From Enterobacter sp. RHBSTW-00175 (lineage in GTDB: Bacteria; Pseudomonadota; Gammaproteobacteria; Enterobacterales; Enterobacteriaceae), in the NCBI RefSeq assembly GCF_013927005.1, contig NZ_CP055933.1, positions 1 to 40,364 of the forward strand: DNA of 40,364 bases, given 5' to 3'. The notes beneath the pieces were generated by a model that was given only the letters and a program-made list of their open reading frames with translations, made no database searches and was not told where the DNA came from. Position numbers and translations under genes: made by a program. Below, piece after piece: positions 2,237 to 39,608 of this stretch; the first letter of the stretch is position 1, and every line of letters begins with the position of its first letter.

Positions 2237-3246
2237 TGCCACGCGCACGTAAAAACAAAGACGACGCCTGGATGCCTCCGAGGGTTTACCTCGGACGTTC
2301 AGCCTATGAGTATCACCCAAAAGGAGGCGGGAACATCCGCCTTTGTGATAAGACCTGTACACAGGCGCAGGTGTGGACAGCCTGGGAAGCAATTATTAAT
2401 GACAGGCCGGATGAATCAACCCTTTCCGGCCTGATTGAGAAGTTCTTCCAATCTGGTGATTTTTTTGAACTCGCAGCGGAAACACAGAAGGATTACCGCA
2501 AATACTCCAAAAAGATAATCGATGTTTTCGGGCAGATGCCGCCAGATAGTATTAAGCCTGAACACGTACGTAAATACCTCGATAAGCGTGGCGTAAAGAG
2601 CCGAACCCAAGCCAACCGGGAAAAAGCATTTATGTCCCGTGTTTATCGCTGGGCTTACGAACGCGGATATGCCAAGGGCAACCCCACAAAAGGGGTTAAG
2701 CAATTTAAAGAGACTGGCCGGGATCGTTACATCACCCATGAAGAGTACAACGCTTTATATAGCGTATCTCCTGATGTTGTGCGTGTTGCCATGGAGTTGG
2801 CCTATCTGTGCTGCGCACGTCAAAACGATGTCCTTGAGATGAAGAAAAACCAGCTTATGGTTGAAGGAATACTGATTAAGCAGAGCAAAACTGCAGTCGC
2901 GCAGATAAAAGCCTGGTCAGACAGACTGAGAGCAGCAATTGACCTTGCCAAAGCCCTTCCCCTCAACGAAGGTATGAGCAGCCTGTTTATTCTTCATCAA
3001 CCTACCGGGCACAAATATACAAGGGATGGCTTCAACAGCCGATGGAGAAAGGCCAAAGAAGAAGCGCGGATCAAATACCCACACTTGAGTTTTGACTTCA
3101 CATTTCATGACCTGAAAGCGAAAGGTATTTCAGATCTTCAAGGTAACATTTACGAGAAACAGGCTATCTCTGGACATAAAAACGTGGAGCAGACGGCACG
3201 GTACGATCGGAAGATTTCAGTCGTCCCTGTGGTGGGTGGGCAATAA
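2236..3246 (+). CDS. int: Tyrosine-recombinase integrase
   Basis: A 336-aa site-specific recombinase. The N-terminal third has an arm-binding-like segment and a core-binding SAM-like region (about residues 60-150: LSGLIEKFFQSGDFFELA). The catalytic domain covers about 165-330. Visible catalytic residues are R195 (CCARQNDVLEMK), K218 (QSKTA), H291 (HDLK), H314 (GHKN) and Y323 (ARYDRK). The second Arg of the usual HxxR box is K294, a substitution I believe is seen in some phage integrases. It is the last gene of the left operon and points at the attP core 108 bp downstream, the usual order for a tRNA-targeting integrase. It should carry out integration into, and with a partner excision from, tRNA-Leu. 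Confidence 0.95.
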   Translation: MPRARKNKDDAWMPPRVYLGRSAYEYHPKGGGNIRLCDKTCTQAQVWTAWEAIINDRPDESTLSGLIEKFFQSGDFFELAAETQKDYRKYSKKIIDVFGQMPPDSIKPEHVRKYLDKRGVKSRTQANREKAFMSRVYRWAYERGYAKGNPTKGVKQFKETGRDRYITHEEYNALYSVSPDVVRVAMELAYLCCARQNDVLEMKKNQLMVEGILIKQSKTAVAQIKAWSDRLRAAIDLAKALPLNEGMSSLFILHQPTGHKYTRDGFNSRWRKAKEEARIKYPHLSFDFTFHDLKAKGISDLQGNIYEKQAISGHKNVEQTARYDRKISVVPVVGGQ

Positions 3247-16440: not shown

Positions 16441-16884
16441 TCAGGAGCCAGACTCGATATTTTCAGGCTTACCTTTCAGACGCAGGGAGAACGTTGCCGC
16501 CACTACGCCGTTGGTACCTGAAGACCAGGTGTGCTGGCGGATTTCAGCCAGGAACTTAAAGCCCTTGCCGGACGGGAAGGTTACCTGGAACGCGTAGGTC
16601 GTATCGTTGTCATACGCTTCACGCAAGGCGTCCTGCGCCGGATTCTTGTAGAAGTTACCGGACAGAGAGATTTCTGACGGAGAAGGCAGGCCGTTGATGT
16701 TCTCCTGCTCGGTAGAGCAAAGCGTTGTTACGTCGATATCCTGCTTCTGGCCACCAGTGAACTGAATTTCTTTGATGGTGCAACTCAGATCGAGGAAGGT
16801 TGCGGTATCCATCGTTTCTTTGGTGGCTGGCGCAGAGGAAATAAGGATCTTCGTCAGCTGCGATTTTTCATAAAGTGCAGACAT
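16441..16884 (-). CDS. V: Major tail tube protein
   Basis: A 147-aa tail tube protein. It starts at ATG 16884 after ACCAGGAGACAGCT. Its composition is strand-rich (FLDLSCTIKEIQFTGGQKQD; GVVAATFSLRLKGKPENIES), like HK97/lambda-like tube subunits. It polymerises in hexameric rings around the tape measure. A terminator lies directly upstream of its SD, which would lower mRNA from the head genes unless antiterminated. Confidence 0.85.
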   Translation of the reverse strand: MSALYEKSQLTKILISSAPATKETMDTATFLDLSCTIKEIQFTGGQKQDIDVTTLCSTEQENINGLPSPSEISLSGNFYKNPAQDALREAYDNDTTYAFQVTFPSGKGFKFLAEIRQHTWSSGTNGVVAATFSLRLKGKPENIESGS

Positions 16885-18660: not shown

Positions 18661-19872
18661 TTAGCTACCAGCACCGCCAGAGAACGCACCGTAAATGAAA
18701 GCTTCAGGGCGTTTAACAGCAAGAGCCAGACGCTCTTCGCAACGAATTGAGATCATGTTTTTCTCGAAGTCGTCGGCGTTCTCGGTGGAGATAACCACGT
18801 TTGCATCTTCACGATCGAACAGTTGAGCTGCGGCATTGAATGCGCCTGTCAGGAATTTGCCCTGGAAAGCTGCTGCCTCAGTTGCTACCACCGGAAGCCC
18901 CCAAAGAGTAGGGCCAGTCAGGGCTGCCGGGTTAGCCAGGATGTAGCGGCCCAGACTGTCTTTGGTGAGTTCAATTTTCGCCCAGTCGATGAAGTGCAGA
19001 ACATGGCCGGAAGCCGGGAAGCGCGCCAGCTGCGCTTGCAGCATTGCAAGACGCAGATCATCAATGCCGTTCTGGCTTTCAACGGTGAACGCCGGAGCAA
19101 ATGCTGATGCCTGAGGAACGATGCCATGCAGATGCACACCGGTGCCGTCACCAAACAAGATCTCCTGTTCTTCGACATACTTCAGGCCGTAACGCATCTC
19201 AGCGTCAACTGTGGACTGAAGCTGAGCGAAGTCGTCAAGGATCTGCTTGGATGCTTTAAACATGTGCGCGATGGTTGTCACCGGCGTAATTTTTGTTGCG
19301 AATTCAATATCGCTGTAAGGCTTGGCAGTACCCTCTGCAACGACTTTCGCTGCATTGGTAAAGCCTGTCTGCTGCACCCAGAAAATAGCTGGAGCACCGG
19401 TGCGTCCAGGTGCAATCAAATCACGGATGAAGAGCCGCTGTTTAGGTGCTGTGTCGATACCTGGCAAGCGCTGGGGTTCTACAACTCCATCAGCAACGTC
19501 AGTGGACAAAAGCGCTGCATTAACTGGAATACTTACTCGTTTGCCACCTTCAATGCTCGCTGCGAAAGTTTTCAGCGCTTCGGAGTTGATCACGACTTTA
19601 CCGACTGTCTCAGCTACTTTCGCAGCATTTGCCAGCGGCATCTGAGCAACATGTTGCTCCAGTTCCCCCATCGCCGCCTTCAACGTTTTTTCTGCTTCGC
19701 GCAGGGCGTTGAACTCAGAAGCCATTTTATCAACGGCTGCCTTTGTTTCCTCAGACAGCTTGCCTGATTTCTGCGCCTCTTTTACTGCTTCTTCTGCTTT
19801 CGCGTTGAACTTGCCGGTTGCCTCTTCAATGCCGGCAGTGACTTTTTTCAGAATATCGTTTACTTCAGACAT
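18661..19872 (-). CDS. Major capsid protein, HK97 fold
   Basis: A 403-aa HK97-type capsid precursor. Residues 1 to about 100 are a charged coiled-coil delta (scaffold) domain (MSEVNDILKKVTAGIEEATG; EFNALREAEKTLKAAMGELE). The shell domain follows, with QRLFIRDLIAPGRTGAPAIF, the E-loop and spine region, and a C-terminal part ending ERLALAVKRPEAFIYGAFSG. It is located directly after the protease that should remove the delta domain. The length agrees with the HK97 family (about 385-410 aa). Confidence 0.95.
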   Translation of the reverse strand: MSEVNDILKKVTAGIEEATGKFNAKAEEAVKEAQKSGKLSEETKAAVDKMASEFNALREAEKTLKAAMGELEQHVAQMPLANAAKVAETVGKVVINSEALKTFAASIEGGKRVSIPVNAALLSTDVADGVVEPQRLPGIDTAPKQRLFIRDLIAPGRTGAPAIFWVQQTGFTNAAKVVAEGTAKPYSDIEFATKITPVTTIAHMFKASKQILDDFAQLQSTVDAEMRYGLKYVEEQEILFGDGTGVHLHGIVPQASAFAPAFTVESQNGIDDLRLAMLQAQLARFPASGHVLHFIDWAKIELTKDSLGRYILANPAALTGPTLWGLPVVATEAAAFQGKFLTGAFNAAAQLFDREDANVVISTENADDFEKNMISIRCEERLALAVKRPEAFIYGAFSGGAGS

Positions 19873-20743: not shown

Positions 20744-22048
20744 CTAAGCGGCCTGTTTCAGCGGAGATTGTTCAAAGGAAATGTCTGGGAATACGTGGTT
20801 ATGCAGCTCTCTCAGGGCCAGAGCCTGAACAGCAGGATTGCTGCTTTCGAGATTTTTCAGTTGCGTCAGGTTGAGCTGAACAGTGTAAATGTCGCCCCCT
20901 TCAATCGGCGGCATATTCTCAAGACGACGAACGTCATTGCGGGACATCCAGCCATTTTGAAGCGCGCTGGTATAGTAAGCAGCGCGGCCCGCGCTGTCGG
21001 CGCGTAGCAATCCTTCAACGGAGAACTCCGCAAACACCTCATCATCGCTATCAAGCAAGCAGCGGCCAATTTCCTGCTCAATATTCACCAGCAGTGGTCG
21101 AAGTGTATGAGTCAGAAACTGCAAGTTCATACCTTCCAGGCTGGATGCCCAGCTGCTTTGTTTCGTGGTGTGACCAACCATGAAAGGTGGCACGCGAAAC
21201 CAGCGACAAATTTCCTCAATACTGAAAGAACGGCTTTCCAGCATCTGGGCATCTTCAGGGTTCATGGTGACGCCCTGATACTTTAACCCGCCTTCAAGTA
21301 CCATTATCTTTCCGGCATTTTTAGAGCCGGTAAATGAAGCCATGTAGCCGCGAAGCCTTTCACGTTGTTCATCACTGAGAGCATTTTCAGCGGAGAGAAA
21401 ACCCGAACTCTGAAGCCCTTGTTCAAAAATCTTTGCCGCAGATTCTTCAACAGCCATCGCGGCACCGATCACATCCCGGCCTGTTTTCATCGGCATCATG
21501 CCGCAAACGCCATCCAGACCGAATCCGCGAATGTGCATGATGTTTTTGACGGGAATGACGCGCTCGTTACCGTTTTCAGTGTATTTGTATTCCAGCGCCC
21601 CGGTAGTAAGACGTTTAACCACCATGTTCTGCGGCAGCAAAGGCACCAGCGAAACCAGGCGATTTGCGATGAATTTCTTCTCAATGAAGGCGTTCCCGCG
21701 CAGGCAAATACTGGCGACCACCATCAACATAAAGCGTGATGGCGTCATTTCTGAATTGGGTCGGCGGCACAGTATCGAATAAGCCGGGTGATCGGTTGCT
21801 GCTTTTCGTGAACCGTCAGGCTGTCGAACATATATTTTCAGCGGAAGGGTCGAAATAGACTCGCTTAACAGCCTTACGCACGCCCACACAGCCGATAGCT
21901 GGATGGCTTTATCGGCCGTAACCACCTTCCCGCTGCTGCTGGTACCAAACCATTCCTCCCAGAACGTGCCGGTAGTGAGGCTGATAGGCACACCGAGCCA
22001 GTTAAGCAGAGCACTCTTCACCCTGCCTGGCTGTTTGTTTTTTTTCAT
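20744..22048 (-). CDS. Portal protein
   Basis: A 434-aa phage portal protein of the HK97 type. Typical segments are IQLSAVWACVRLLSESISTL, PLKIYVRQPDGSRK, SILCRRPNSEMTPSRFM and EEICRWFRVPPFMVGHT. It forms the dodecameric ring at the packaging vertex. The start overlaps the TerL stop by 1 bp (TGATG). Confidence 0.95.
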   Translation of the reverse strand: MKKNKQPGRVKSALLNWLGVPISLTTGTFWEEWFGTSSSGKVVTADKAIQLSAVWACVRLLSESISTLPLKIYVRQPDGSRKAATDHPAYSILCRRPNSEMTPSRFMLMVVASICLRGNAFIEKKFIANRLVSLVPLLPQNMVVKRLTTGALEYKYTENGNERVIPVKNIMHIRGFGLDGVCGMMPMKTGRDVIGAAMAVEESAAKIFEQGLQSSGFLSAENALSDEQRERLRGYMASFTGSKNAGKIMVLEGGLKYQGVTMNPEDAQMLESRSFSIEEICRWFRVPPFMVGHTTKQSSWASSLEGMNLQFLTHTLRPLLVNIEQEIGRCLLDSDDEVFAEFSVEGLLRADSAGRAAYYTSALQNGWMSRNDVRRLENMPPIEGGDIYTVQLNLTQLKNLESSNPAVQALALRELHNHVFPDISFEQSPLKQAA

Positions 22049-23784
22049 CAGAAACCTACCATGATGGGATTATTGAAAAATCCGGAGAGATCCTGCTGGT
22101 CGTTGCCACCGTTAACCAGAACGCGGCTCATTGCTGTGAACAATGCCGCCGGGCCATCAATCTTGGCCTCTGGTGTGGACTTGTTCGGGAAAATGTTCTC
22201 GTTCCGGTCGGGTTTGACGGTTACGTTGGACATCATCCAGTTCATTACCGGGTGATCGCTGTGATGGAAGCGGCCTCCGTATACCAGCGCTTCAACCTCT
22301 TTCATCGCCTCGGAGAAATTGCGAACCGTCTGCGGCACTTCCACCAGCGGCAAACCTTCCTCTGCCAGCGCAAGGCTGAACTGCGTGGCACTCCATGGAT
22401 CGAAGCCAATTTCTTTCAGGCTCTCACCAGCAACCCACTCCTGAAGCTCCTCCTTAATCTGAGCATGGTCTATTACATCCCCGTCGGTAAGGATCAGCTT
22501 GTCCAGCTCGGACCACTTACGATAGAGCTCTGCCATCTGTCGGGAACATTTCTCAAGCCGTCCTTCCGGCAGCCAGAATTTAAAATCTGCATGGACGTGA
22601 CCATCCGGCGAACGCCAGACTTTAGCGGCCGCACAGATATCAATTTTGTTTGAAAGGTCAACGCCAATCCATGAGGGATAGGTTTTAAGTTCGTGCTGCG
22701 GGGCGATAAACTCGCATTTTTCCCACTTCATCATGTCCATCCAGGCCGCCTCAGCGGTTACCCAGATATTCATGTGCTTGGTAAAAAAGTTAATCCTGGC
22801 CGAAACCTGCTCTTTAGCCTTTTTAGCCAGGCGGCGAAGGTCATCCCAGCGCTTACAGATACCCAGACCCGGATTCGCCTTCTGCCAGACTTTTTCATCA
22901 AAGGGATCGTCACCTTCATCTAAGGTGTAGATGATGGCAAAAAACGTATCGTCTTTAACCAGGCCGCGCAGGACCTTGATTGCGTAATCGCGTAGTTCGT
23001 AACAGATACCTTCTTTGTTGAAGCCGGCGGTGGTGATACCGAAAAGCAGGGATTGCAGGCGCGCGCCGGTGGCCGTCTCCAGTACGTCCCAGACGTCACG
23101 CGTTTTATGAGCATGCAGCTCGTCAACGATGGCGCAGTGGATGTTCAGGCCGTCGAGGTTGTTTGCATCTGATGATAATGGCTCGAATTTGGAGGCCGTT
23201 TGCTCCTGGTAGATAGCGAGCTTGTTGAATTCGAAGATCCGCCCAAGAGTGGCTTTCGCCTTCTTGACCATATTTTTCGCGTCTTCAAAAACAATTCGCG
23301 CCTGGTCACGGGTGGTTGCAGCGGAATAAACCTCCGCCCCGCCCTCGCCGTCAGCGCCAGCCATATAGAGCCCCACGCCGGAGCAAAGTGTTGATTTGGC
23401 ATTTTTACGGGCCACCTCAACATCTGCTGTACGGAAACGCCGAACCATCACCGTCCGACCGCTGCCGTCGTTACGCAGGACGGTTTCCCCCGTCTCTTCG
23501 TTCACCAGCGGGATAACAAAGCCAAAAATATTAATCAGGATGAAAACATGCCAGTCCATCAGCTCAATAGGCTGGCCTGCCAGCGCACCTTTGACGTGAG
23601 GAACAAAATTATAGAAATTCAGAATGTGCTGCGCGCGCGGCTCACTGAAGAAAATACCGCGCTCTTCGCCGTGTGCCAGATCGTCAAGAAAACGCTGACA
23701 GGCAAGGCGCACATACTCACAGGCAATAATTTCTCCCGCCACCACCCTCTCGGCGTAGCGGATGCCTTCTGCAACCTTAGCCAT
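22048..23784 (-). CDS. terL: Terminase large subunit
   Basis: A 578-aa packaging ATPase/nuclease. The Walker A-like segment is ARKNAKST (125-132) and the Walker B HCAIVDE (216-222, with D221 and E222). A further acidic nuclease site is suggested by SWIGVDLSNKIDICAAAKVW near residue 395. This is the HK97/Terminase_1 family used by cos phages. The start overlaps the TerS stop (TAATGG). Confidence 0.95.
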   Translation of the reverse strand: MAKVAEGIRYAERVVAGEIIACEYVRLACQRFLDDLAHGEERGIFFSEPRAQHILNFYNFVPHVKGALAGQPIELMDWHVFILINIFGFVIPLVNEETGETVLRNDGSGRTVMVRRFRTADVEVARKNAKSTLCSGVGLYMAGADGEGGAEVYSAATTRDQARIVFEDAKNMVKKAKATLGRIFEFNKLAIYQEQTASKFEPLSSDANNLDGLNIHCAIVDELHAHKTRDVWDVLETATGARLQSLLFGITTAGFNKEGICYELRDYAIKVLRGLVKDDTFFAIIYTLDEGDDPFDEKVWQKANPGLGICKRWDDLRRLAKKAKEQVSARINFFTKHMNIWVTAEAAWMDMMKWEKCEFIAPQHELKTYPSWIGVDLSNKIDICAAAKVWRSPDGHVHADFKFWLPEGRLEKCSRQMAELYRKWSELDKLILTDGDVIDHAQIKEELQEWVAGESLKEIGFDPWSATQFSLALAEEGLPLVEVPQTVRNFSEAMKEVEALVYGGRFHHSDHPVMNWMMSNVTVKPDRNENIFPNKSTPEAKIDGPAALFTAMSRVLVNGGNDQQDLSGFFNNPIMVGF

Positions 23785-24257
23785 TAATCCCTCGCTTTCA
23801 TAAACTCGGCCAGCGGGTCAACCGCATCAGGACCTTTTGCATTCACTTTAGAGCGGCTGGCTGGCGTCATGCCGAACTCTCCGAGCATGGCGCGCAGACG
23901 TTTCCAGGCATCAGCTTTCATAATGGCCGCCGGGTGAGCTTTGATCATCACATCCCCGCTCTGCGTTTCGGTCCGGTAGGTGTACCCCTCAATTTCAAGC
24001 GTGTCGCAGTGGTGCCGGTATTCGGTATATGCCTCAACCAGCAACTCAAGGGCTCTGGCGTCCAGTTGGGACATCACACCGATAGCATCGAGCTCGTCGG
24101 CCATCCGCTTAAACCAGTATTTCCCCTGCTTGTCGAAATGCTTCGGCGTTGGGGGTACCCCTGCAGCGGGTTTTGGTTCGTTCTCATTGATTGGGCGTTT
24201 TGATGGGTTACCCCTCACCAAACGTAGATGGGTCGGGGTTTTCGGTGGTCCAGACAT
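23784..24257 (-). CDS. terS: Terminase small subunit, P27 family
   Basis: A 157-aa P27-type small terminase. It opens with SGPPKTPTHLRLVRGNPSKR and has the helical core YWFKRMADELDAIGVMSQLD and PAAIMKADAWKRLRAMLGEF, ending GPDAVDPLAEFMKARD. It recognises the packaging site and stimulates TerL. The start at ATG 24257 has SD TAGGAGTTTTCG. The intergenic region directly upstream is the expected cos site. Confidence 0.92.
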   Translation of the reverse strand: MSGPPKTPTHLRLVRGNPSKRPINENEPKPAAGVPPTPKHFDKQGKYWFKRMADELDAIGVMSQLDARALELLVEAYTEYRHHCDTLEIEGYTYRTETQSGDVMIKAHPAAIMKADAWKRLRAMLGEFGMTPASRSKVNAKGPDAVDPLAEFMKARD

Positions 24258-24414: not shown

Positions 24415-24765
24415 TCATTTGAGTCTTTCGACCGCTGTCTTAGCCCTGTGGCAGGGCTTGCAGAGGCTTTCGAGGTTGGACAGGTCATCGGTCCCCCCAT
24501 TTGCTTTGGCGGTGATGTGGTCCACCGTCTCAGCGGGTGTATACCTTCCATTTCGCAGGCATTCCTGACAAAGGTGTTTATCCCTGTCGAGAACGATTGG
24601 GCGCAGCCTGTCCCACTTACTGCCATAGCCGCGCTGGTGCCTGCTCTGTCCTCTCTGATGCTGCTGCCAGCCTTCGTTAAGGTGCTTGGGACAATAGCCT
24701 GAGCGGTCAGTGGTTGTGCCAGGACAACCACGCTTGCGGCAGGCTCTCGGTATTAACGCAGGCAT
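24415..24765 (-). CDS. HNH endonuclease (HK97 gp74-like, packaging)
   Basis: A 116-aa HNH nuclease starting at ATG 24765 (MPALIPRACRKRGCPG) after GGAGGTTAGCCAG; an earlier ATG at 24780 is less well placed. Zinc cysteines (RKRGCPG, SGYCPKH, CQEC, CKPC) frame the nuclease core VDHITAKANGGTDDLSNLES. In HK97 the equivalent gp74 lies next to cos and stimulates terminase cleavage. It overlaps the upstream glycosyltransferase gene by 13 bp. Confidence 0.9.
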   Translation of the reverse strand: MPALIPRACRKRGCPGTTTDRSGYCPKHLNEGWQQHQRGQSRHQRGYGSKWDRLRPIVLDRDKHLCQECLRNGRYTPAETVDHITAKANGGTDDLSNLESLCKPCHRAKTAVERLK

Positions 24766-25355
24766 CTGGCTAACCTCCACGCCCGGCGGCGTTCTGTTCG
24801 TGGTGCTGAGTCAGGGTGACGTTCAACCGGTTCACCATCTGCATGATCCACCAGCGAGTAGCATGGATAGACCACTGCGCCGCCATAAGCATCACCCACT
24901 GCATAGTCGGCTGGTTTACTGCTATCCCATCGAGACAACACGCGGTTGATATGTTGCGGAGGTACGCTATAGCACACCCCATGTATCAGTCGCGGCAGCG
25001 TGATGTAGTCAGCCTGAGTCTTATCAGCAACAATCAGCCGTTCGGCTATCTGCATCTGATACTGAGGCGGGCGGCCGGTACCGAGATAAAAGCTCAGCAT
25101 GTCGTTAGGAAAGCGGGGCAGCCAGTTGACCACCAGCTCGGTAAACAAAGGAACTGGCATCGCGTCGTCTTCCAGCACCACTGTCCGGCATGGATGGCAG
25201 GCAGCCCACTCAAGCGCGCGTCGATGATTCCAGTTCGCGCCGTGGTTACCGTCATCAATCAGCAGATGAGCATCCAGCAGCGCGGCAAGTCGTTGCGCAT
25301 GACCTTTGCGAGAGTGATGGCCAACCACAACAAACTTAAAATCTGTCTGCATCAT
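24753..25355 (-). CDS. Glycosyltransferase, GT25-like
   Basis: A 200-aa protein starting at ATG 25355 or 25352 (MMQTDFKFVVVGHHSRKGHA) with SD AAGGTG; the longer frame upstream overlaps the HNH gene and is not used. Features are NWNHRRALEWAACHP and VVLEDDAMPV (an ED/DxD-type metal motif), then LIHGVCYSVPPQHINRVLSR and SKPADYAVGDAYG, as in GT25-like GT-A enzymes. The basic C-terminal tail (RTERRRAWRLARCLR) overlaps the HNH start. The acceptor is unknown: LPS, a virion protein or another target. It lies in the late operon between lysis and packaging genes. The assignment is by motif only. Confidence 0.65.
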   Translation of the reverse strand: MMQTDFKFVVVGHHSRKGHAQRLAALLDAHLLIDDGNHGANWNHRRALEWAACHPCRTVVLEDDAMPVPLFTELVVNWLPRFPNDMLSFYLGTGRPPQYQMQIAERLIVADKTQADYITLPRLIHGVCYSVPPQHINRVLSRWDSSKPADYAVGDAYGGAVVYPCYSLVDHADGEPVERHPDSAPRTERRRAWRLARCLR

Positions 25356-25848
25356 TATGGGTAAACACCTTGTTTCGGACTCGACGTGCAGCTTCAGCTG
25401 CCAACTCTGCTGTTTCATGGAACCCAGCGTGATAACGCTTTCCTTCATGATTGCAGTAAGCAAGCCATTTATTTTTTTGTTTATTCCACGATACGCCGCG
25501 ATATCCAGATGTTGAGCGGGAATCAACAACACATTGGTTCTCTGCGTTTTGCTTTGGTGATACAAGTCGGAGGTGATGAGGGTTAACACATAAGGTGTTG
25601 TGACAGATATGGTCTATATACTTACCTTCCGGTATTGGCCCATTATGCATTTCCCAAGAAACCCGGTGGGCTAAAAGAACCTTTGGGTTACCAGAGGCAT
25701 TTCGATCTGTACCAATAACCCCATAAGTTAACTTTCTTTCTCCGCTACCGCCCTTCACTGTTGCGGCACACCAGCACCAACAATCTTCTTCACCTTTTTT
25801 ATCAACCTTTATCCAAAATCTCTCTTCAATCGTCTTTCTTGCGGCCAT
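25336..25848 (-). CDS. HNH-AP2 homing-type endonuclease
   Basis: A 170-aa protein with an HNH core (LLAHRVSWEMHNGPIPEGKY, then IDHICHNTLCVNPHHLRLVS) and a C-terminal AP2 DNA-binding domain (STSGYRGVSWNKQKNKWLAY). This is the layout of free-standing phage homing endonucleases. It lies between two glycosyltransferase genes and its 3' end overlaps the start of the second by 20 bp. It is probably a mobile gene that inserted here. The start at 25848 follows GGGAGGCATTGTC. Confidence 0.9.
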   Translation of the reverse strand: MAARKTIEERFWIKVDKKGEEDCWCWCAATVKGGSGERKLTYGVIGTDRNASGNPKVLLAHRVSWEMHNGPIPEGKYIDHICHNTLCVNPHHLRLVSPKQNAENQCVVDSRSTSGYRGVSWNKQKNKWLAYCNHEGKRYHAGFHETAELAAEAARRVRNKVFTHNDADRF

Positions 25849-25888
25849 GACAATGCCTCCCGGTTAAAGGATTTTCAGGATAATGAAA

Positions 25889-27346
25889 TTATTTATGGCG
25901 CCAGAAAGCGTACTCTTTACCAACACCATCGGACTTAAAAATAGTGTGGATGCGGGGGCCGGTGACAATTCGATCGCCAAACGATTTAGCAACAATGCCA
26001 AAAGCAATCATGTCGCCCACTGCAGCACCAGCCTGTTCTTTCTTCCAGAAACGATAACTCTCGATCCGGTAGTAAAGACGGATGATGCCGTGAGCGAATG
26101 CCATCACATCAGCGCGGGTACCACCCAGCAGACCAGCATTAAGCATCACATCGTTGCGGTGCGCTTTGATGAATTCCTGATAGATTCGCTCCGGATGATT
26201 CTGCTTTGCCCAGGCGTCAGCGTATGTCTTCGGTTCTGAACCGACATACACCTTCCCGGGCTCCATTTCTTCCCACGGCGCGCGGAGCATTTCGACATCA
26301 GTACCATCCGTGCACCAGACAAAGCGGTACTGGGGGTTATCACGCAGGTATTGCCAGATATGCAGCCAGCGGCGGAAATAAACGTTCATGTCGACCGCAG
26401 GCACACGCACCGTAAGCTGGCCAGGTGGAGAATATTCAAACTCATCAGCGAGAATGACCGCTTCGCCGCCTTTGATAGATGCGACCCATTTCGCAATAAG
26501 CGCCTGCTCTGGCTTCAGCTTGGTGCCGCGCTGCGGGTCAGGCTGACTGGTGAGCAGCGTTGTGATAACTATGTCGCGCTGCCGCCGATACTCCACGTAA
26601 CCGGTAAACCCGGCATCACGGCGTTCGTTGTGGATTTTAACGTTACGCTCCACCAGCGCCTGGCGGTCTGGCCTCGGTACCGAACGCTCCACCGCTTCAT
26701 GCTCATCGAGAGAATGGATCAGCTTTTCTGAACCGACGACATCAGCGTAAGCCCACGTCGTGAGGCCAGCGTTATGAATCCGCAAGGCGAGGTCGCTGTG
26801 TTCATACATGCCGCGACCGTATACCGGATCAAATCCACCCACCTTCTCGATGGCGCTACGGTGGTAATACAGCATCACGCCGCGCTGCCCAGTGTACGCC
26901 ACATGCTGATCGTCACGGTAAAGCACCGAAAGGTCATTGAGCTTATTCTGGCCAGCAAGATCGAGGAACTGGTAAGCCAGGTGTGGCTCTGGTGATTCGA
27001 TATACGGCAGGTGCCAGTTATCGGCGATGGGCCAGGCATCATCATCCCATAGGAATAGATGCTCGCACCCAGCATCCATAAGGGATGACAGGCTGGCGTT
27101 CTTAGAAGCAACAATGCCGAGTGATGTTTCATGGCTAAGCAGCTGCACGCCATCGGGAACTACCGCTGCAGGTTTTGAACCATCATCGACAACCACCACC
27201 AGCGCACCGGCGGGAAGATGCTTCATGTGATGTTCGAGCGCTCGTTTAAGAACGTCTGCGCGTTGGTGCGTCGTTATTGCAATCCCAATCCGGGAGAATA
27301 CGGCACCAGCTGGTACATACGGTACGCCATTGATAGAGACTTCCAT
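25889..27346 (-). CDS. Two-module glycosyltransferase (GT2 + second GT-A-like module)
   Basis: A 485-aa protein starting at ATG 27346 with SD AAGGGGC. Residues 1-15 (MEVSINGVPYVPAG) are a phage-type beta hairpin. Residues 19-255 are a GT2 domain: GIAITTHQRADVLKRALEHH, DDGS at 54-57, DDDAWP at 101-106, and GMYEHSDLALRIHNAG. Residues 262-485 look like a second GT-A-like module: IVITTLLTSQPDPQ, FVWCTDGTDVEML, and LNAGLLGGTRADVMAF, a motif position typical of GT8-type and related enzymes. The protein could add two sugars in turn. It has no membrane segment, so its acceptor is reached from the cytoplasm. Target unknown. Confidence 0.8.
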   Translation of the reverse strand: MEVSINGVPYVPAGAVFSRIGIAITTHQRADVLKRALEHHMKHLPAGALVVVVDDGSKPAAVVPDGVQLLSHETSLGIVASKNASLSSLMDAGCEHLFLWDDDAWPIADNWHLPYIESPEPHLAYQFLDLAGQNKLNDLSVLYRDDQHVAYTGQRGVMLYYHRSAIEKVGGFDPVYGRGMYEHSDLALRIHNAGLTTWAYADVVGSEKLIHSLDEHEAVERSVPRPDRQALVERNVKIHNERRDAGFTGYVEYRRQRDIVITTLLTSQPDPQRGTKLKPEQALIAKWVASIKGGEAVILADEFEYSPPGQLTVRVPAVDMNVYFRRWLHIWQYLRDNPQYRFVWCTDGTDVEMLRAPWEEMEPGKVYVGSEPKTYADAWAKQNHPERIYQEFIKAHRNDVMLNAGLLGGTRADVMAFAHGIIRLYYRIESYRFWKKEQAGAAVGDMIAFGIVAKSFGDRIVTGPRIHTIFKSDGVGKEYAFWRHK

Positions 27347-27355
27347 AAAAGCCCC

Positions 27356-28225
27356 TTATCGACTACCGAGATTATTCCAGATAGCGCCTCCCGGCCTCAG
27401 CGAATTGCGGATAGCATCGCCCACTGCGTCATCCACTGCCTGTTTCAGGCTGGAGGTTGAAGCTGCCTGATCAGCTATCGCAGTCTGAAGGGATGTGAAC
27501 AGATCGCTTTCGCGTACGGCGGAGATAATGGCTTCGCGCATCTCATCAGTGAGAATGGTTTTGGTGGCATTACTACGACCATCGTGAACATGACTAATTG
27601 TCCCGGGGAAACCACCAAAATCCAGACCACCATTCAAGGATCGCTCTTCATTATTGCTGGTTGATTGAGCGGCTTTATGCGCCTTAAAGTTGTCAGCCTC
27701 AAACACTACTTTACGCTGATCATCCTCAACGCAGATAGCCATGCCAGCAACGTGCAGTTTGCCGCCGTGGTTCACGTTCATCTTTAAGCTATAGTTGGCA
27801 GACACTACGGCATCGCCAATCATCGTATCGGTAACTTGCACCTGACGGTGAATCGGCGTTCCGTTTATCAAATCTTCAAATTCTTTGCTGTTGCGAATTT
27901 CTTCACGAATAGCATCTATCGCCTTTTGCGCGCTGTCAGGTTTAATCCAGTATGCGGGGTAGTATTCCTTAGCCACTGGTTCACCAAAGCGCGTATTGAC
28001 CAGGTGCTTAATAGCAAACTCCTGCCCTTCAGCAGTCAGGAAAGTAAGATAGTTTTCCTTCTGATATTGCGTTGCGGTATGTCGGGTTTCAGCAAACCCC
28101 AGTTCGCGAAGCTGTGCTGCACCAGATTTAGATGGCAGGTCGCCACTTTGCAGCGCACCACGGAAAAACAGAGCATACAAAACATCTGCCGCGCGGCCGG
28201 ATAACTTAATGTTTTTCTCTGACAT
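27356..28225 (-). CDS. J-derived DUF1983-like protein with N-terminal winged-helix-like domain
   Basis: A 289-aa protein starting at ATG 28225 with SD AAAAGGAAATAAATC. The N-terminal ~90 residues (IKLSGRAADVLYALFFRGAL; SGAAQLRELGFAETRH) look like a winged helix. From about 105 it resembles this phage's own tail-tip protein J: DAIREEIRNSKEFEDLI here against DAILEDIKTSEVFKDLI in J, and YSLKMNVNHGGKLHVAGMA with KVVFEADNF against YSIKVAVDANGNQYAAGMG with VLFLADRF. The C-terminal part has repeated coiled helices (ISAVRESDLFTSLQTAIADQ). It is encoded far from the tail genes, beside the glycosyltransferases. Function unknown: a tail accessory, a decoy or a regulator are all possible. Confidence 0.7.
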   Translation of the reverse strand: MSEKNIKLSGRAADVLYALFFRGALQSGDLPSKSGAAQLRELGFAETRHTATQYQKENYLTFLTAEGQEFAIKHLVNTRFGEPVAKEYYPAYWIKPDSAQKAIDAIREEIRNSKEFEDLINGTPIHRQVQVTDTMIGDAVVSANYSLKMNVNHGGKLHVAGMAICVEDDQRKVVFEADNFKAHKAAQSTSNNEERSLNGGLDFGGFPGTISHVHDGRSNATKTILTDEMREAIISAVRESDLFTSLQTAIADQAASTSSLKQAVDDAVGDAIRNSLRPGGAIWNNLGSR

Positions 28226-29404: not shown

Positions 29405-29950
29405 TCACTGGCGCTCTTTTTCAATCTGCCGTATGCCAGCCAGGTTATTGTTGCCCTTTTCAATCACGGCCAGCAGCGGCTTAATCCAGAGAACAGCCTG
29501 ACAGTAGGTTATTGAGCCGGGGGAAGTGGCACTATCATTGGCTGTGTCAGTGTTGCCGGTATCGGGGTACATTGCGCTGGCACGTAAACGGTGCGCGTAT
29601 TCGAGCAACCCACCAGCAACATCAGCAGGAACAGGCAGATCACAGGTTTTTTCACGGCGGAGAATCTCCCGGTATTCGATAACGGTGTTATCGGTGCTGG
29701 CATCAATCAGTGAATTGTTGCGGCTGGCGTTTTCGGCTACCTGGTTAAAACGGTTAAAGTTAAGAGCCTGTGTTGCGATAACCGTCCCCTGCAAAGTGTT
29801 ATCATTTCGCAGAACGTCATTATCACTCTTCAACGTAGCTACATCGGTTCGGCTATTTGCCAGCAGGACACACAGCACGGCAACGACGACAATCACAACC
29901 GCCAGCGCTATTGAGCGCCATGCAGCTTTGATATCAGCAAGGGTAATCAC
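29405..29950 (-). CDS. Rz: i-spanin Rz
   Basis: A 181-aa inner-membrane spanin subunit. It starts at GTG 29950, overlapping the lysozyme stop (GTGA). The N-terminal transmembrane segment is SIALAVVIVVVAVLCVLL (about 13-30), followed by a long periplasmic, coiled-coil domain (DVATLKSDNDVLRNDNTLQG). The o-spanin gene is embedded in another frame. Together they fuse inner and outer membranes as the last lysis step. The coiled-coil/periplasmic part is somewhat longer than in lambda Rz (153 aa). Confidence 0.85.
   Translation of the reverse strand: MITLADIKAAWRSIALAVVIVVVAVLCVLLANSRTDVATLKSDNDVLRNDNTLQGTVIATQALNFNRFNQVAENASRNNSLIDASTDNTVIEYREILRREKTCDLPVPADVAGGLLEYAHRLRASAMYPDTGNTDTANDSATSPGSITYCQAVLWIKPLLAVIEKGNNNLAGIRQIEKERQ
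29509..29655 (-). CDS. Rz1: o-spanin lipoprotein Rz1, nested in Rz
   Basis: A 48-aa lipoprotein in an alternative frame within Rz. It starts at GTG 29655 (VKKPVICLFLLMLLVGC) after GGGAGATTCTCC. The lipobox LVGC gives a mature outer-membrane protein beginning CSNTRTVYVPAQ, with a Pro-rich tail (PATLTQPMIVPLPPAQ) as in lambda Rz1. The nested layout is that of lambda Rz/Rz1. Confidence 0.85.
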   Translation of the reverse strand: MKKPVICLFLLMLLVGCSNTRTVYVPAQCTPIPATLTQPMIVPLPPAQ

Positions 29951-30393
29951 GACAGGAACAGAGCACGCTCTGCCTCACGCCGCCGCGTCAGCCCTTTCAG
30001 GGCTTTGCCACCAGCTTTATTCCAGCTCATGAACTCAGCGGCAGCGCCAGTGTAATCACCGGCGTTGAGCTTGCGCAGCAGTGTTGAGGTCGACAATGAG
30101 CGAGCGCCAAGGTTATACGTGAACGACACCAGGGCATCGAATTGCCCCTGAGTCATACCGACTTTAACCAGGCGAGACACGTCGCTTTCATAACTTACCA
30201 GTCCGGTCTTCAGCAGGCGTTCTGCCGTCTCCTGCTTAATGGTCATTCCGGCGCGGATTGGTTTCCCATCTACAGGCTGAGTCCAGCCATAGCCGATCGT
30301 CCAGACGCCTACGCTGTCCTGGTAGGCGGTGAGTTTGCAGCCTTCGAACTCTTTGATCAGGGCAATGCCTTTATCACTGGTTTGCATCGCCAC
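29947..30393 (-). CDS. R: Endolysin, T4-lysozyme family
   Basis: A 148-aa muramidase of the phage lysozyme (GH24) family. Catalytic residues E17 (KEFEGC), D26 (YQDSVG) and T32 (WTIGYGW) have the same spacing as E11-D20-T26 of T4 lysozyme. There is no signal-anchor sequence at the N-terminus, so it waits in the cytoplasm for the holin. The start at 30393 (or 30387) overlaps the holin gene by up to 20 bp. Confidence 0.93.
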   Translation of the reverse strand: MAMQTSDKGIALIKEFEGCKLTAYQDSVGVWTIGYGWTQPVDGKPIRAGMTIKQETAERLLKTGLVSYESDVSRLVKVGMTQGQFDALVSFTYNLGARSLSTSTLLRKLNAGDYTGAAAEFMSWNKAGGKALKGLTRRREAERALFLS

Positions 30394-30715
30394 CTCCGAA
30401 TCGAGAACTAAACACCCTGCCAGCTACAGCTTTAACCTGTTCAACACCAACAAAGCCCAGAGCGCCGCCGATAGCAATCGACAGAGACTGCGGAAGGTTA
30501 AAGTAATCAAGAGCTGATACAGCTGTAAGAGTTAGCGCTCCACAAATAGAGCCTTCCAGAATCATTTTCTTCCACCCACCGCCGCCGTAAGCGATTCGCA
30601 TAGCAGCCATGACTACCGATAGCAATACGGCACCCATCGGCGTTTCACCGCGCCACCAGCTGTGGAGCAGTTCGATAAACTCCGTCCAGGAGTGGGGATC
30701 GTTATGCATTTTCAT
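30374..30715 (-). CDS. S: Holin, lambda S family
   Basis: A 113-aa holin. Hydrophobic segments MGAVLLSVVMAAMRIAYGGG, GSICGALTLTAVSALDYF and SLSIAIGGALGFVGVEQVK follow the lambda S pattern, with a charged C-terminus. The N-terminus is MKM, as in lambda, where starts at codons 1 and 3 give antiholin and holin. Starts at 30715 and 30709 could do the same here. The SD (GAGGTGAGAGACC) fits the first best. It times lysis by opening the inner membrane for the endolysin. Confidence 0.88.
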   Translation of the reverse strand: MKMHNDPHSWTEFIELLHSWWRGETPMGAVLLSVVMAAMRIAYGGGGWKKMILEGSICGALTLTAVSALDYFNLPQSLSIAIGGALGFVGVEQVKAVAGRVFSSRFGGGDANQ

Positions 30716-31577: not shown

Positions 31578-32360
31578 TTAATAAGTTGTTGCCTTCTCAA
31601 ATTCTACTGCCGCGTGACGCTCCCACTGGCGCAGCGTGTCCACCAGCATTTCATAAAAGGGTTTCCAGTTGCGTGACCATGATGACTGATGGAGATCCGG
31701 AAGACGCTTCAGAATGGCTCGGTGTACGGTCGCCGAGGAGATAGCAGAGAAGCCATTACCAGAGCAACGCTCACACGTCTTGAAAACCGGTGCGCCGCGT
31801 TCTTTAGTGGCTTTGCGGTCCAACACTTCACCTTTACCACCACACCTGCACCGGGCAAGGATCACTTTCTTTCCTCCGCATGTTCCGCAAACCCTTTTCA
31901 CCAGCTCATTTTTAATCTTCGGGGCAACCACTGCAGCACCGTCGGCGTCGAAAATACCAGGATGTTTAACCACATCCTCATTCCCGGAGATAAACCCGGT
32001 ACCACTGCAACTGATACACGTCACGCTTGTAGCCGCCGAACGGGAGTAATCAGCAAAGGCAAATTGCGCCAGCATTTGCATACACCATCCGAAATGGCCA
32101 CCAGCTGCTTTACGTACATTCTTTGGTGCCGTTTCCATCGCGTAACGTGCAAGTGCCTGAATTGCCCGTTGACCGTCACTTTGGCTTACGTCAGCCTTGC
32201 CAAGGAAAGCCGCCAGGCCGAATCGCGCGCGGCTGCTGGTGGTACCAATCGCCGCCATAACATCAGTGCCGGTGAGACGATCCGGAGAGGTTCCTTTTAC
32301 GTCGTCGCTGATGTGCATTCCCTGAGGGCTGAAATGTTTGAGTGATGTTTCCAACTTCAT
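31578..32360 (-). CDS. Q: Late antitermination protein Q, zinc-finger type
   Basis: A 260-aa protein of the phage 82-type Q family (antitermination protein with DnaJ-like zinc motifs). Visible Cys clusters are CISCSGTGFI, CGTCGGKK, CRCGGKG and CERCSGNGFS, spread over about residues 110-205. The N-terminus MKLETSLKHFSPQGMHISDD and C-terminal SWSRNWKPFYEMLVDTLRQW are typical. Q modifies RNA polymerase paused at pR' so that it ignores terminators, of which the late operon has many. It overlaps the previous gene by 4 bp (ATGA). Confidence 0.9.
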   Translation of the reverse strand: MKLETSLKHFSPQGMHISDDVKGTSPDRLTGTDVMAAIGTTSSRARFGLAAFLGKADVSQSDGQRAIQALARYAMETAPKNVRKAAGGHFGWCMQMLAQFAFADYSRSAATSVTCISCSGTGFISGNEDVVKHPGIFDADGAAVVAPKIKNELVKRVCGTCGGKKVILARCRCGGKGEVLDRKATKERGAPVFKTCERCSGNGFSAISSATVHRAILKRLPDLHQSSWSRNWKPFYEMLVDTLRQWERHAAVEFEKATTY

Positions 32361-34648: not shown

Positions 34649-35655
34649 GGGCGGTTAGCTCCGCGCTTCATGCGGTCAATGGCTGCCTGGCTGATAAATA
34701 CCTCAGCCGAACCGTCACTTGGTTTTGCGAACCAGGAAGCCCCTGTCCCACCGATGGCGTTTGCGCTTGCGGATATCTGAGGAGCTCCATTTGGTTTTTC
34801 ATCGTTCCAGCGCTCTCCGTTCAGGTATGACGCTGGCAGGAGTTTGTCGAACCCCATTTGCTGTGTTTTCACCCGGAGGCTGATATCTTCAGCCAGCATA
34901 ACGGCGAAGTTCTCAGGCGTACCTCGGTTCGCTTTTTTCCAGTCGCGATATTTGGTCCTGAACGCTGACTTAGCCTTGACCTTGGCATCCTTTCTCAGAC
35001 CTGCCCCCCAAAAAATATTTTCGAAAGCGACATCGACTGGATCTTGGCCTTCAGCATCATCTGATTCTGAATCAGGTTTTTCCTGTGAAGGTTTCCCTTT
35101 CGACTCGTCAGGTTTATCGCCATCAGTCCGATTCGAATCGGACAAATTAGTTTTATTCCTTTCCTCTTCCCTTCCCTTCCTTTCCTTTCCGTCAGTGAGT
35201 TCGTCGTGAGCACTCAGTGAGTCCTCAGTGTTATCTCCATTACTTGTATGTGAATCATGCTTTTGTTTTTCATCATCGCTCACTGAGCCATCCATGTAAT
35301 TCGGTGCTGGTTTCCGTGAGTTATCAGTAACGTCTGCAGGAGTAGGTATTGTTGTTGTGGATGGTCGGTTAATTTTTTGATGTTTAGAAAAACCATCAAT
35401 GTGAATATATTCAACACCACTCACTGAATACTCACTGATTAATCCTGCCCCACTAAGTTCTTTAATTAACGGTTCGCAGTCGATCATATCGGCAGGGAAA
35501 ATCTGCATCTTGATACGCTTAGGGGAGCGCACCAGATTGCCTTTATCATCAGCAAAATTGAACATGCCGATAAACATCAGGCGCGCCTCAAATGAGCACT
35601 CGACAACTTTCTCATCGGTCCAGAACTCAGGTTTAATTGTTCTAATGCGTGCCAT
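34645..35655 (-). CDS. Replication initiator, O-like
   Basis: A 336-aa protein starting at ATG 35655. The N-terminal winged-helix domain (MARIRTIKPEFWTDEKVVEC; LMFIGMFNFADDKGNLVRSP) belongs to a common phage replication/DnaD-like family. A long hydrophilic linker (about 105-205; polar, acidic and basic runs) joins it to a C-terminal domain (VAFENIFWGAGLRKDAKVKA; LPASYLNGERWNDEK). Five 8-bp repeats and a polypyrimidine tract lie in the linker DNA, so the gene probably contains its own origin, like lambda O. It should load the primase-helicase encoded next. Confidence 0.82.
   Translation of the reverse strand: MARIRTIKPEFWTDEKVVECSFEARLMFIGMFNFADDKGNLVRSPKRIKMQIFPADMIDCEPLIKELSGAGLISEYSVSGVEYIHIDGFSKHQKINRPSTTTIPTPADVTDNSRKPAPNYMDGSVSDDEKQKHDSHTSNGDNTEDSLSAHDELTDGKERKGREEERNKTNLSDSNRTDGDKPDESKGKPSQEKPDSESDDAEGQDPVDVAFENIFWGAGLRKDAKVKAKSAFRTKYRDWKKANRGTPENFAVMLAEDISLRVKTQQMGFDKLLPASYLNGERWNDEKPNGAPQISASANAIGGTGASWFAKPSDGSAEVFISQAAIDRMKRGANRP
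35127..35142. repeat. 16-bp perfect palindrome in initiator gene
   Basis: TCCGATTCGAATCGGA reads the same on both strands. It is next to a polypyrimidine tract (35157-35190) and near the iteron-like repeats, as expected for an origin element. Confidence 0.7.
35192..35438. repeat. ori: Five iteron-like 8-bp repeats, candidate replication origin
   Basis: TCAGTGAG occurs at 35192-35199 and 35214-35221, and its complement CTCACTGA at 35279-35286, 35420-35427 and 35431-35438. A partial copy lies at 35225. Chance expectation for one 8-mer in 247 bp on both strands is far below one. Confidence 0.6.
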
Positions 35656-36007
35656 CAATCAGCCCTCCATCAGCACAAATAACCTCACTTACATCAGACT
35701 TTGACTGGAATTTGGCATCTACCAGGGAGGCCTTGCGCGCATTGCAGGAATCACACAAACATTGCATGTTGTCTGGGTGGTGAGCCCCACCGTTACGTCG
35801 CGATACAATGTGATCTGCGACCAATTTAATGCGGTCTTGACTGCCACAATGACGGCATTTGAAACCGTCGCGCCAAAGAACAAATTCGCGTAGTGCGCGA
35901 TGGCAGGGTACGCGCATTTTCAGGCGACCTTTGATCGTGGGCGCTTTCCATTTGTTGCCGTTCTGGTCTAACCAAAACTCAGACGGCACCTTTCCGTAAT
36001 CACGCAT
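35642..36007 (-). CDS. HNH endonuclease in early operon
   Basis: A 121-aa HNH nuclease starting at ATG 36007 (MRDYGKVPSEFWLDQNGNKW) with SD GGAGGCGC. The core is LWRDGFKCRHCGSQDRIKLV, then ADHIVSRRNGGAHHPDNMQC, with zinc pairs CRHC and CDSC. It overlaps the DUF4222 gene by 8 bp and the initiator by 14 bp. It has no AP2 domain, unlike two others in this genome. It may be a homing enzyme or a DNA-processing enzyme of replication. Confidence 0.88.
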   Translation of the reverse strand: MRDYGKVPSEFWLDQNGNKWKAPTIKGRLKMRVPCHRALREFVLWRDGFKCRHCGSQDRIKLVADHIVSRRNGGAHHPDNMQCLCDSCNARKASLVDAKFQSKSDVSEVICADGGLIDGTH

Positions 36008-36209
36008 TTTGCGCCTCCGAGACCTTTGTAAAATATTGTTGGAACTTCCAGACAGGCTGCATGCATTCATGCGGATAATTCTGCCTGGTGAAATACACCT
36101 GCTGTTTATCCCGATTCCAGCCGGTGACATGCACAATCACACCGCGCGGATCGCGATAATCGATATCCAATGGCTTAATTTGGTTTTCGGTAGTGATTGA
36201 GTGCGACAT
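36000..36209 (-). CDS. DUF4222-like small protein
   Basis: A 69-aa protein starting at ATG 36209 with SD GAGGTGTGAT. It has the pattern IDYRDPRGVIVHVTGWNRDK, then VYFTRQNYPHECMQPVWKFQ, as in DUF4222 proteins of lambdoid early regions. It has a single strand-rich domain. Function is unknown. It lies 1 bp after the Cro-like stop, so the two are coupled. Confidence 0.75.
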   Translation of the reverse strand: MSHSITTENQIKPLDIDYRDPRGVIVHVTGWNRDKQQVYFTRQNYPHECMQPVWKFQQYFTKVSEAQNA

Positions 36210-38669: not shown

Positions 38670-39015
38670 CTTAATTAACACCTACCGCCGGAGAATTTTA
38701 AAGGCAGCGTTATTGCGCCACCAGCGTAAAACAGGCAGCAACTGCCTTGTGATTAAGCTCAATAAAGGCGGCATTAACACGGTCGAGTTAACCGAGATTC
38801 TTCTCGATGGATTATTGCGGAAATTCGAAAGGCTCGCGATAAGCGAATACGGAAATGTCGAAGGCGTAAAAGCTATTAAGGGAATTTACAGCAGTTCTGT
38901 TGATGTTAATGGCAGCGGTGAATTCCTCACAGATAGTGGGAAGGAGTTAATCGACGAGCTCATTTCTGAGCTGGTGGAGTTCGTCAAAAAGCAGAAAGTG
39001 GGGGCTCGGATCTGA
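38662..39015 (+). CDS. Hypothetical protein, left operon
   Basis: A 117-aa protein starting at ATG 38662 within the previous gene's end. The N-terminus is basic (NTYRRRILKAALLRHQRKTG), followed by a strand/helix mix (VIKLNKGGINTVELTEILLD; LTDSGKELIDELISELVEFV). It could bind nucleic acid. No family recognised. It overlaps the HNH gene by 1 bp. Confidence 0.7.
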   Translation: MNNLINTYRRRILKAALLRHQRKTGSNCLVIKLNKGGINTVELTEILLDGLLRKFERLAISEYGNVEGVKAIKGIYSSSVDVNGSGEFLTDSGKELIDELISELVEFVKKQKVGARI

Positions 39016-39608
39016 TGGCGCTGACAGCGATAAGAATTCCTGAATCAGATTATCTCAACGAGTGCTTTTATTACGAACAAAAAACTGGAGAGTTGTTTTG
39101 GAAACATCGTCCTTTAAAACACTTTTCATCATCAAGTATGCAAAAACAGTTAAATACAAGGTTTGCAGGTAAACCTGCTGGCGCTTTTATTAAAACCAAA
39201 ACAGGAGCATATCGTATCGTGCGGTTAGATGGCGTCATTTACTATGCCCATCGTCTGATATTTAAAATGGTTAATGGTGTTGAACCCGAAGTAGTCGATC
39301 ACATTGATGGGAACACCACTAATAACAGAATAGAAAACCTACGTTCATGTACAAACCAAGACAATAGTAAGAATGCGCGCTTATCTAAAACCAACACATC
39401 CGGCCATACAGGGGTGAACTGGTCACATCAAAAGAAAAAATGGTGGGCAAATATTGTCATAAACGCGAAGCAAATATATCTGGGCTCTTTCGCGGATTTC
39501 AATAAAGCAGTCGAGGCAAGACGAAACGCAGAAATTAAATATGGATTTCATGATAACCACGGAAAAAACAGAACACGATTCACGGGAGAAACCGGAAATG
39601 AACGATAA
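39015..39608 (+). CDS. HNH-AP2 endonuclease in left operon
   Basis: A 197-aa protein. The HNH core is YYAHRLIFKMVNGVEPEVVD, then HIDGNTTNNRIENLRSCTNQ. The C-terminal AP2 DNA-binding domain is NTSGHTGVNWSHQKKKWWAN. The N-terminal 65 residues (LNECFYYEQKTGELFWKHRP) are typical of this homing-type family. It is a different subtype from the nuclease at 25336. The start overlaps the previous stop by 1 bp; the 3' end overlaps the next gene by 11 bp. Confidence 0.9.
   Translation: MALTAIRIPESDYLNECFYYEQKTGELFWKHRPLKHFSSSSMQKQLNTRFAGKPAGAFIKTKTGAYRIVRLDGVIYYAHRLIFKMVNGVEPEVVDHIDGNTTNNRIENLRSCTNQDNSKNARLSKTNTSGHTGVNWSHQKKKWWANIVINAKQIYLGSFADFNKAVEARRNAEIKYGFHDNHGKNRTRFTGETGNER

Follow-up and report, generated by a model that had tools for sequence, protein, structure and literature searches.

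Why should a lambda-like phage carry two glycosyltransferase (GT) genes between its lysis and packaging genes? The question arises from a stretch of Enterobacter sp. RHBSTW-00175 DNA (hereafter the window) that comprises an entire 40,364-base contig (NZ_CP055933.1) of a four-contig genome. On its minus strand lie the genes for GT1, a two-domain enzyme of 485 aa (25889-27346) with a GT2-like N-terminal half and a predicted GT6-like fold in its C-terminal half, and for a GT25-like enzyme of 200 aa (24753-25355). We consider it likely, from sequence comparisons, that this pair works in the cytoplasm as an O-glycosylation module whose acceptors are the C-terminal serines of two virion proteins, the major capsid protein and the tail tube protein. 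The first-pass annotation of this DNA had offered a virion protein, phage DNA or lipopolysaccharide (LPS) precursors as possible targets. Its suggestion of a virion protein is supported, with the capsid and tail tube indicated in place of the fibre or a neighbouring J-like protein, whereas DNA and LPS are left without support.

The proposed acceptors are the major capsid protein (18661-19872, minus strand; phrog_10 major head protein, E = 6.6e-86), which ends ..FSGGAGS, and the major tail tube protein (16441-16884, minus strand; phrog_158 major tail protein, E = 7.2e-60), which ends ..NIESGS. Their final residues, GAGS and ESGS, are the only Gly-Ser ends among the 26 late proteins of the window that were printed. 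Three of these 26 end in serine, the third being the endolysin, which ends in Leu-Ser. Mycobacteriophage Che8 has the same pair of ends (capsid KTGS, tail tube SDGS), and they are again the sole Gly-Ser ends among 14 late proteins printed. The capsid and tail tube of phage mEp390 end SSGS and ASGS.

The association was counted across 295 genomes of the window's family, which were queried with the GT25-like protein, the tail tube and four capsid lineages (A to D); the counts cover the window and 74 fetched stretches. A protein was called linked if a GT25-like copy occurred on the same contig within 30 kb. All 20 linked capsids end in serine, compared with 5 of 45 unlinked ones (Fisher p = 1.9e-12). 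The linked and unlinked fractions are 8/8 and 1/17 in lineage A, 7/7 and 0/1 in B, 1/1 and 4/23 in C, and 4/4 and 0/4 in D. Tail tubes give 14/14 linked and 7/20 unlinked (p = 1.6e-4), and 20 of the 292 remaining open reading frames (ORFs) of the GT-positive loci end in serine. The residue before the final serine in the 34 linked proteins is Gly in 23, Thr in 8, Asn in 2 and Ser in 1. The capsid count excludes 14 rows of separate prohead proteases and 3 rows of broken fragments from genomes G026 and G054. Two tail tubes overlooked by the gene caller, those of the window and G266 (the latter ending ASGS), are not among the 14, and the G265 tail tube was counted as unlinked because it is on a different contig from the GT.

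Of the 295 genomes, 22 encode the GT25-like protein, in 27 copies. Twenty of these copies are in the capsid count, and five accompany other head families (G293, G041 twice, G288 and G108). At all five loci a protein with a terminal serine occupies the place of the head protein; PHROG scans identified it as such for G288 and for one of the G041 copies, and size and place did so for the other three. The last two copies lie in G016 remnants, and the one that was read showed no head genes. A pattern scan of virus contigs returned at least 600 stretches, at least 597 of them with a GT1 relative; 80 loci were kept from these and 30 from 46 stretches of genome contigs, for a total of 110. The capsids and tail tubes counted here all end in serine (44/44 capsids and 38/38 tail tubes on virus contigs, 13/13 and 10/10 on genome contigs), but these are not independent counts, given the close relatedness of the two sets and their overlap with others.

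The association also appears between close relatives. On a tree of 47 capsids from lineages A and C, built with the last six residues excluded, GT presence changes six times. Five independent pairs on supported branches give a score of 4.8 for serine occurring with the GT and 0 for the opposite. Lineages B and D each add one contrast in the same direction, which makes seven of seven, reckoned without a tree. Seven GT-positive fused protease-capsid proteins end GS, TS or SS, and the sole GT-negative homologue (G291) ends AGE, with a tail tube ending APA. The 404-aa capsid of GT-positive genome G237 ends ESGS. Eleven unlinked homologues (68-90% identity) align with it no further than residue 400-401, and a twelfth (G094) no further than 328.

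Other head types in GT-positive loci behave similarly. The ORFs in this check were chosen by their serine end combined with plausible size and place before they were scanned against PHROG, and three of the 20 (from GodonK) and some others were previously known or annotated as head or tail proteins. Nineteen of the 20 scanned proteins fall in head or tail PHROGs, and one belongs to phrog_779 (Gordonia), which has no assigned function; serine-ended ORFs of 967 aa in locus L284 and 702 aa in L282 are among those left unscanned, so the check was not blind. The tail hits are to major tail (phrog_853, 584, 1407, 158 and 792) and minor tail (phrog_290) families. The head hits are to major head (phrog_247, 617, 283, 10 and 777), protease-head (phrog_133) and head-category virion structural (phrog_771) families, so the serine end is found across seven PHROG families of head proteins. 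All six actinophages with a GT25-like homologue (Che8, QueenHazel, McProf, MooMoo, GodonK and BlueNGold) have serine at the end of both the capsid and the tail tube. In a sample of two actinophages without this homologue, the TM4 capsid and tail tube and the Giles capsid do not end in serine; the Giles tail tube is unannotated, and four other late proteins printed for this phage have non-serine ends.

This recurrence bears on the possibility that virion proteins are glycosylated elsewhere, at internal Ser/Thr residues, the tail tip or the fibre, and that the serine end is an independent signal for assembly or stability, one that simply travels with the GTs. The residues preceding the end do vary, serine ends exist without GTs, and in lambdoid phages the GTs adjoin head genes and may recombine jointly with them. 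However, such a signal would have to appear in seven head families as well as in tail tubes encoded kilobases away. It would also have to accompany GTs that are distant from the head genes in actinophages: the Che8 capsid lies at 5 kb of the linear map and its GTs at 56-59 kb, and the McProf GTs lie at 21.7-24.5 kb and its capsid at 35.7 kb. We regard a separate signal as unlikely and favor the C-terminal serine itself as the acceptor.

Several observations weigh against this assignment. Twelve unlinked proteins end in serine (5/45 capsids and 7/20 tail tubes), and lineage C taken alone is not significant (1/1 and 4/23). The sign test on the capsid pairs alone gives a median p of 0.06, and the four tail-tube pairs (1.8 in the same direction, 0 opposite and 2.2 equal) are not significant. 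The HK97 capsid ends SSGS although HK97 lacks a gp110 homologue; its tail tube has an extra C-terminal part and ends TIS. Eight virus contigs encode a tail tube ending Ser-Gly-Ser with neither GT present. Among 80 loci with a tail tube near-identical to that of the window, GT-less loci also end in serine (15/15 capsids and 24/24 tail tubes), as do those with a GT piece (50/50 and 56/56). We treat this last set as uninformative because the ends are equal with or without the GT piece and most of the GT-less loci are cut short. Finally, GT-positive locus L259 (L259:3788-13478) has a capsid ending SGTPSS and no serine-ended tube candidate. It presumably belongs to a sheathed-tail phage, whose covered tube may need no sugar.

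A different GT might account for serine ends that occur without GT1 or the GT25-like enzyme. Profiles and the Che8 GTs were compared with ORFs of at least 120 aa around nine exceptions, covering one flank for G074, G076 and G246; the unlinked tail tubes of G000, G022 and G265 lay outside this comparison, as did most of the eight virus contigs. This search gave weak rows only (E from 0.04 to 5) and recognized no other GT near the nine, which also counts against the proposed acceptor. Our tentative view is that the exceptions are mosaic recombinants or coincidences.

Homology connects the pair to phages in which virion glycosylation has been described. Searching 50,697 phage records with tblastn returned 582 matches to GT1, of which 544 are from Mycobacterium phages, and 443 matches to the GT25-like protein, of which 394 are. 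GT1 is about 40-46% identical over its length to the full-length mycobacteriophage relatives shown, and the GT25-like protein is 35% identical to Che8 gp110 over 192 columns (E from 1e-24 to 6e-23). The available passages of one paper name Che8 gp110 and Corndog gp38 as the two glycosyltransferases essential in capsid glycosylation (PMC12363180). Excerpts of two others locate the glycans on the C-terminal ends of capsid and tail-tube subunits (PMC12619734) and describe glycans on the Che8 and Rita capsids (PMC11256854). The work of Freeman et al. (2023) on mycobacteriophage virion glycosylation is known here through the papers that cite it; three further papers do no more than cite mycobacteriophage work, in the portions available (PMC10955285, PMC11652166, PMC10877033). 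The accessible part of a Corndog cryo-electron microscopy preprint mentions host glycans and not virion glycosylation (PMC13252515). A glycoprotein stain was absent in ten other phages, which may or may not carry such enzymes, according to the excerpted text of a further paper (PMC12894461). Open-licence literature listings contained nothing in print that extends virion glycosylation to enteric phages, and the serine-end rule is proposed here and not drawn from any paper.

The modules of the Che8 and Corndog type resemble that of the window in having a homologous GT25-like enzyme (35% identity) and a capsid and tail tube that end in serine. They differ in that the window phage has a Gram-negative host and its GT genes are beside terminase, whereas the Che8 genes are at the genome end. 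Che8 also has further annotated GTs, gp108 and gp109, without a significant match to GT1. QueenHazel and McProf carry the same set of two genes, GT1 and a GT25-like gene. The Gordonia phages GodonK and BlueNGold likewise have two neighboring annotated GTs within the structural operon, among the tail genes, and a capsid and tail protein that end Gly-Ser, but their genomes are 114-123 kb and each encodes two additional proteins with this end. In both phages (L241:33458-35521 and L322:18716-23797), these are an unknown protein (gp77/gp87) and the head-to-tail adaptor, hinting that more than two proteins may be glycosylated there.

GT1 matches phrog_1579 glycosyltransferase over its full length (E = 2.4e-247). 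The GT25-like protein matches phrog_854 glucosyltransferase (E = 6.2e-73) over residues 83-274 of a 278-aa ORF (24753-25589). We place its start at the ATG at 25355 and not at the mechanically chosen GTG at 25589, because homology is confined to this part and the annotated mEp390 gene begins at the equivalent place. In Pfam, GT1 has two weak matches below cut-off (TAGT PF20691, E = 0.04; GT2, E = 0.08), and the GT25-like protein has no match at E up to 1. Sequence searches against solved structures placed neither GT above chance. The modeled C-terminal half of GT1 adopts a GT6 fold at 8-14% identity, and a profile search of PDB sequences returned one chance-level row for it; the model of the N-terminal half had low confidence and was left unused. 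Among the top predicted folds for the GT25-like enzyme is COLGALT1, tied with GnT-I and POMGNT1, and protein O-glycosyltransferases are represented among them. Identities to GT6 (blood-group A/B transferases, BoGT6a) and GT25 (COLGALT1) enzymes are 8-17% in the rows shown, and the fold does not reveal the sugar or the acceptor.

Two other acceptors can be weighed at this point. Glycosylation of phage DNA by an enzyme like the TET-associated or beta-glucosyltransferases is hinted at by the match of GT1 to TAGT. However, its 14.3 bits fall short of the 27.5-bit cut-off, so GT1 does not qualify as a TET-associated DNA glycosyltransferase, and the general GT2 family scores similarly (13.3 bits). 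The part of the window's ORFs that was scanned includes no base hydroxylase or other base-modification family, and protein O-glycosyltransferases figure among the top folds predicted for the GT25-like enzyme. We judge a DNA target to be extremely improbable. Lysogenic conversion, by modification of cytoplasmic LPS or O-antigen precursors that alters the host surface, is the usual reading of prophage glycosyltransferases (PMC11332146, in the passages available). The gtrABC seroconversion cassettes are likewise prophage-borne, but in them the transferase is accompanied by a flippase, GtrA, and the membrane protein GtrC. In the window, the scanned ORFs include no flippase family, and the neighbors among them are HNH, J-like and TerS proteins and three small proteins without an assigned function; the claim of the first-pass annotation that the pair lacks a membrane partner is consistent with this result. 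The pair is also in the late operon, a link between LPS and capsid C-termini would not be expected, and the available text on the mycobacteriophage homologue has it working on virions (PMC12363180). Lysogenic conversion is therefore very unlikely, and the searched-for genes that might support either a DNA or an LPS target were absent from the scanned proteins.

A virion-directed module would operate as follows. The two soluble enzymes would be made alongside the structural proteins, with late expression predicted from operon position. With nucleotide sugars taken from the host, they would assemble a short glycan on the capsid and tail-tube proteins, at the flexible tails that form their C-termini. 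The acceptor would most likely be the hydroxyl of the final residue, a serine that follows Gly, Thr, Asn or Ser. Three transferase domains would be available, one in the GT25-like enzyme and two in GT1, acting in some order, which makes a glycan of two or three sugars plausible. As has been reported for mycobacteriophages, the glycan might shield the particle from antibodies; that it protects the particle, or conceals abundant virion proteins from bacterial sensors, would be speculation.

The system is probably of a known kind, the mycobacteriophage virion-glycosylation module, in a new host range of HK97-type Enterobacteriaceae phages, and with a proposed acceptor rule in which the C-terminal serine is the probable site. 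If this is correct, then HK97 relatives that grow on E. coli, for example mEp390 and HK542, bear sugars on capsid and tail, and the sequence would reveal the acceptor site. Many prophage genes now labeled hypothetical, glycosyltransferase family 2 or host-surface cargo would also get a new label. A broader idea, to which we give about even chances, is that the GT pair is a portable system that reads a free C-terminal [Gly/Thr/Asn/Ser]-Ser tag on abundant virion proteins of any fold, and that the tag evolves on capsids and tail tubes of unrelated origin in the phages that acquire the pair. This would amount to a C-terminal code for cytoplasmic O-glycosylation, shared by HK97-like coliphages and the phages of Mycobacterium and Gordonia. 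Virion glycosylation would then be common in Enterobacteriaceae phages and not an oddity of mycobacteriophages.

The pair is more widespread than had been supposed. The statement that lambda-type phages normally have no such genes was too strong, because a DNA search with the region finds both GTs annotated under the match in mEp390, HK542, ENT39118, ENT47670, ECP1, Fostie and LMessi; it also matches Fraca, SaltyDalty and CharmingMan. Both GTs occur in 105 of the 110 loci, and the hosts of the genome-contig loci include Enterobacter, Kosakonia, Pantoea, Erwinia and Citrobacter as well as one Brucella species and one actinobacterium. The two genes overlap by about 19 bases at five HNH-free junctions printed, and over the 105 pairs, measured between stop-to-stop frames, 40 overlap and the rest are separated by up to about 1.3 kb. 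The pair lies within the structural operon directly after the capsid gene in L285 and L287, with one gene between in L187. A protein database holds 1,884 GT25-like relatives, and among the 120 listed the names are hypothetical, uncharacterized or glycosyltransferase. GT1 is rare in E. coli at the DNA level, occurring in 9 of 5,426 genomes, 7 of them over at least 80% of its length. The 300-kb jumbo Klebsiella phage LPKP23 has an adjacent pair (L242:19801-21860; 55% and 43% identity) annotated as hypothetical, and its capsid gene was not found.

The genome that contains the window (G000) has two more head-tail modules. A second prophage (C1:3872000-3884500, L201) has its own GT pair, with a GT1 82% identical to that of the window, and its capsid and tail tube end GAGS and ASGS. 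A third module (C1:4250000-4257500, L200) has no linked GT and a capsid that ends GAGA.

In the window, the two GT genes are separated by a gene for a 170-aa endonuclease with HNH_3 and AP2 domains (25336-25848, minus strand; phrog_3593, E = 2.3e-60; HNH_3, 4e-18; AP2, 2.6e-7). The AP2 match of 31.3 bits is just short of the 33.3-bit cut-off. With its corrected start, the GT25-like gene overlaps the HNH stop. We read the HNH gene as a mobile insertion because it is sporadic, with 32 of the 105 pairs having it between the two GT genes, and because it is 98.8% identical to the mEp390 copy when the flanking GTs are only 88% and 83% identical. It is probably a homing endonuclease and would be a passenger in the module, in agreement with the homing-type element that had been suggested here.

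The gene preceding GT1 encodes a J-like protein with a tail tip domain (27356-28225, minus strand; PF09327). Co-occurrence of this gene with the two GTs had been put forward as a check, and it holds for the GTs and not for their neighbor. A J-like relative is present in 33 of the 95 GT1 loci with sufficient upstream sequence and also at GT-less loci (L140, L253 and L318), and we reject it as an obligate partner.

The late region, encoded on the minus strand, comprises in order antiterminator Q (31578-32360; PF03589), the lysis genes (29405-30715), several small genes, J-like, GT1, HNH, GT25-like, a gp74-type HNH, terminase, portal, protease, capsid and tail; the lysis, portal and protease genes were named by reading their sequences. 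The ORFs and PHROG matches confirm the layout first described, in which a pair split by an HNH gene lies in the late operon with lysis genes on one side and packaging genes on the other. The packaging neighbors are TerS (23784-24257) and TerL (22048-23784), both on the minus strand. The HK97 gp74-type HNH gene that adjoins TerS (24415-24780, minus strand; PF01844, E = 1.6e-15) is outside the module, and its relatives are present in GT-less loci too (L088 and L140). Two more HNH genes lie beyond the late operon (35642-36136 and 39015-39608), for at least four in the phage. A 267-codon open frame spans the junction of the two contig ends (40364/1), and the contig is therefore probably a circular molecule, either an excised phage or an episomal prophage, despite its integrase gene (2236-3246).

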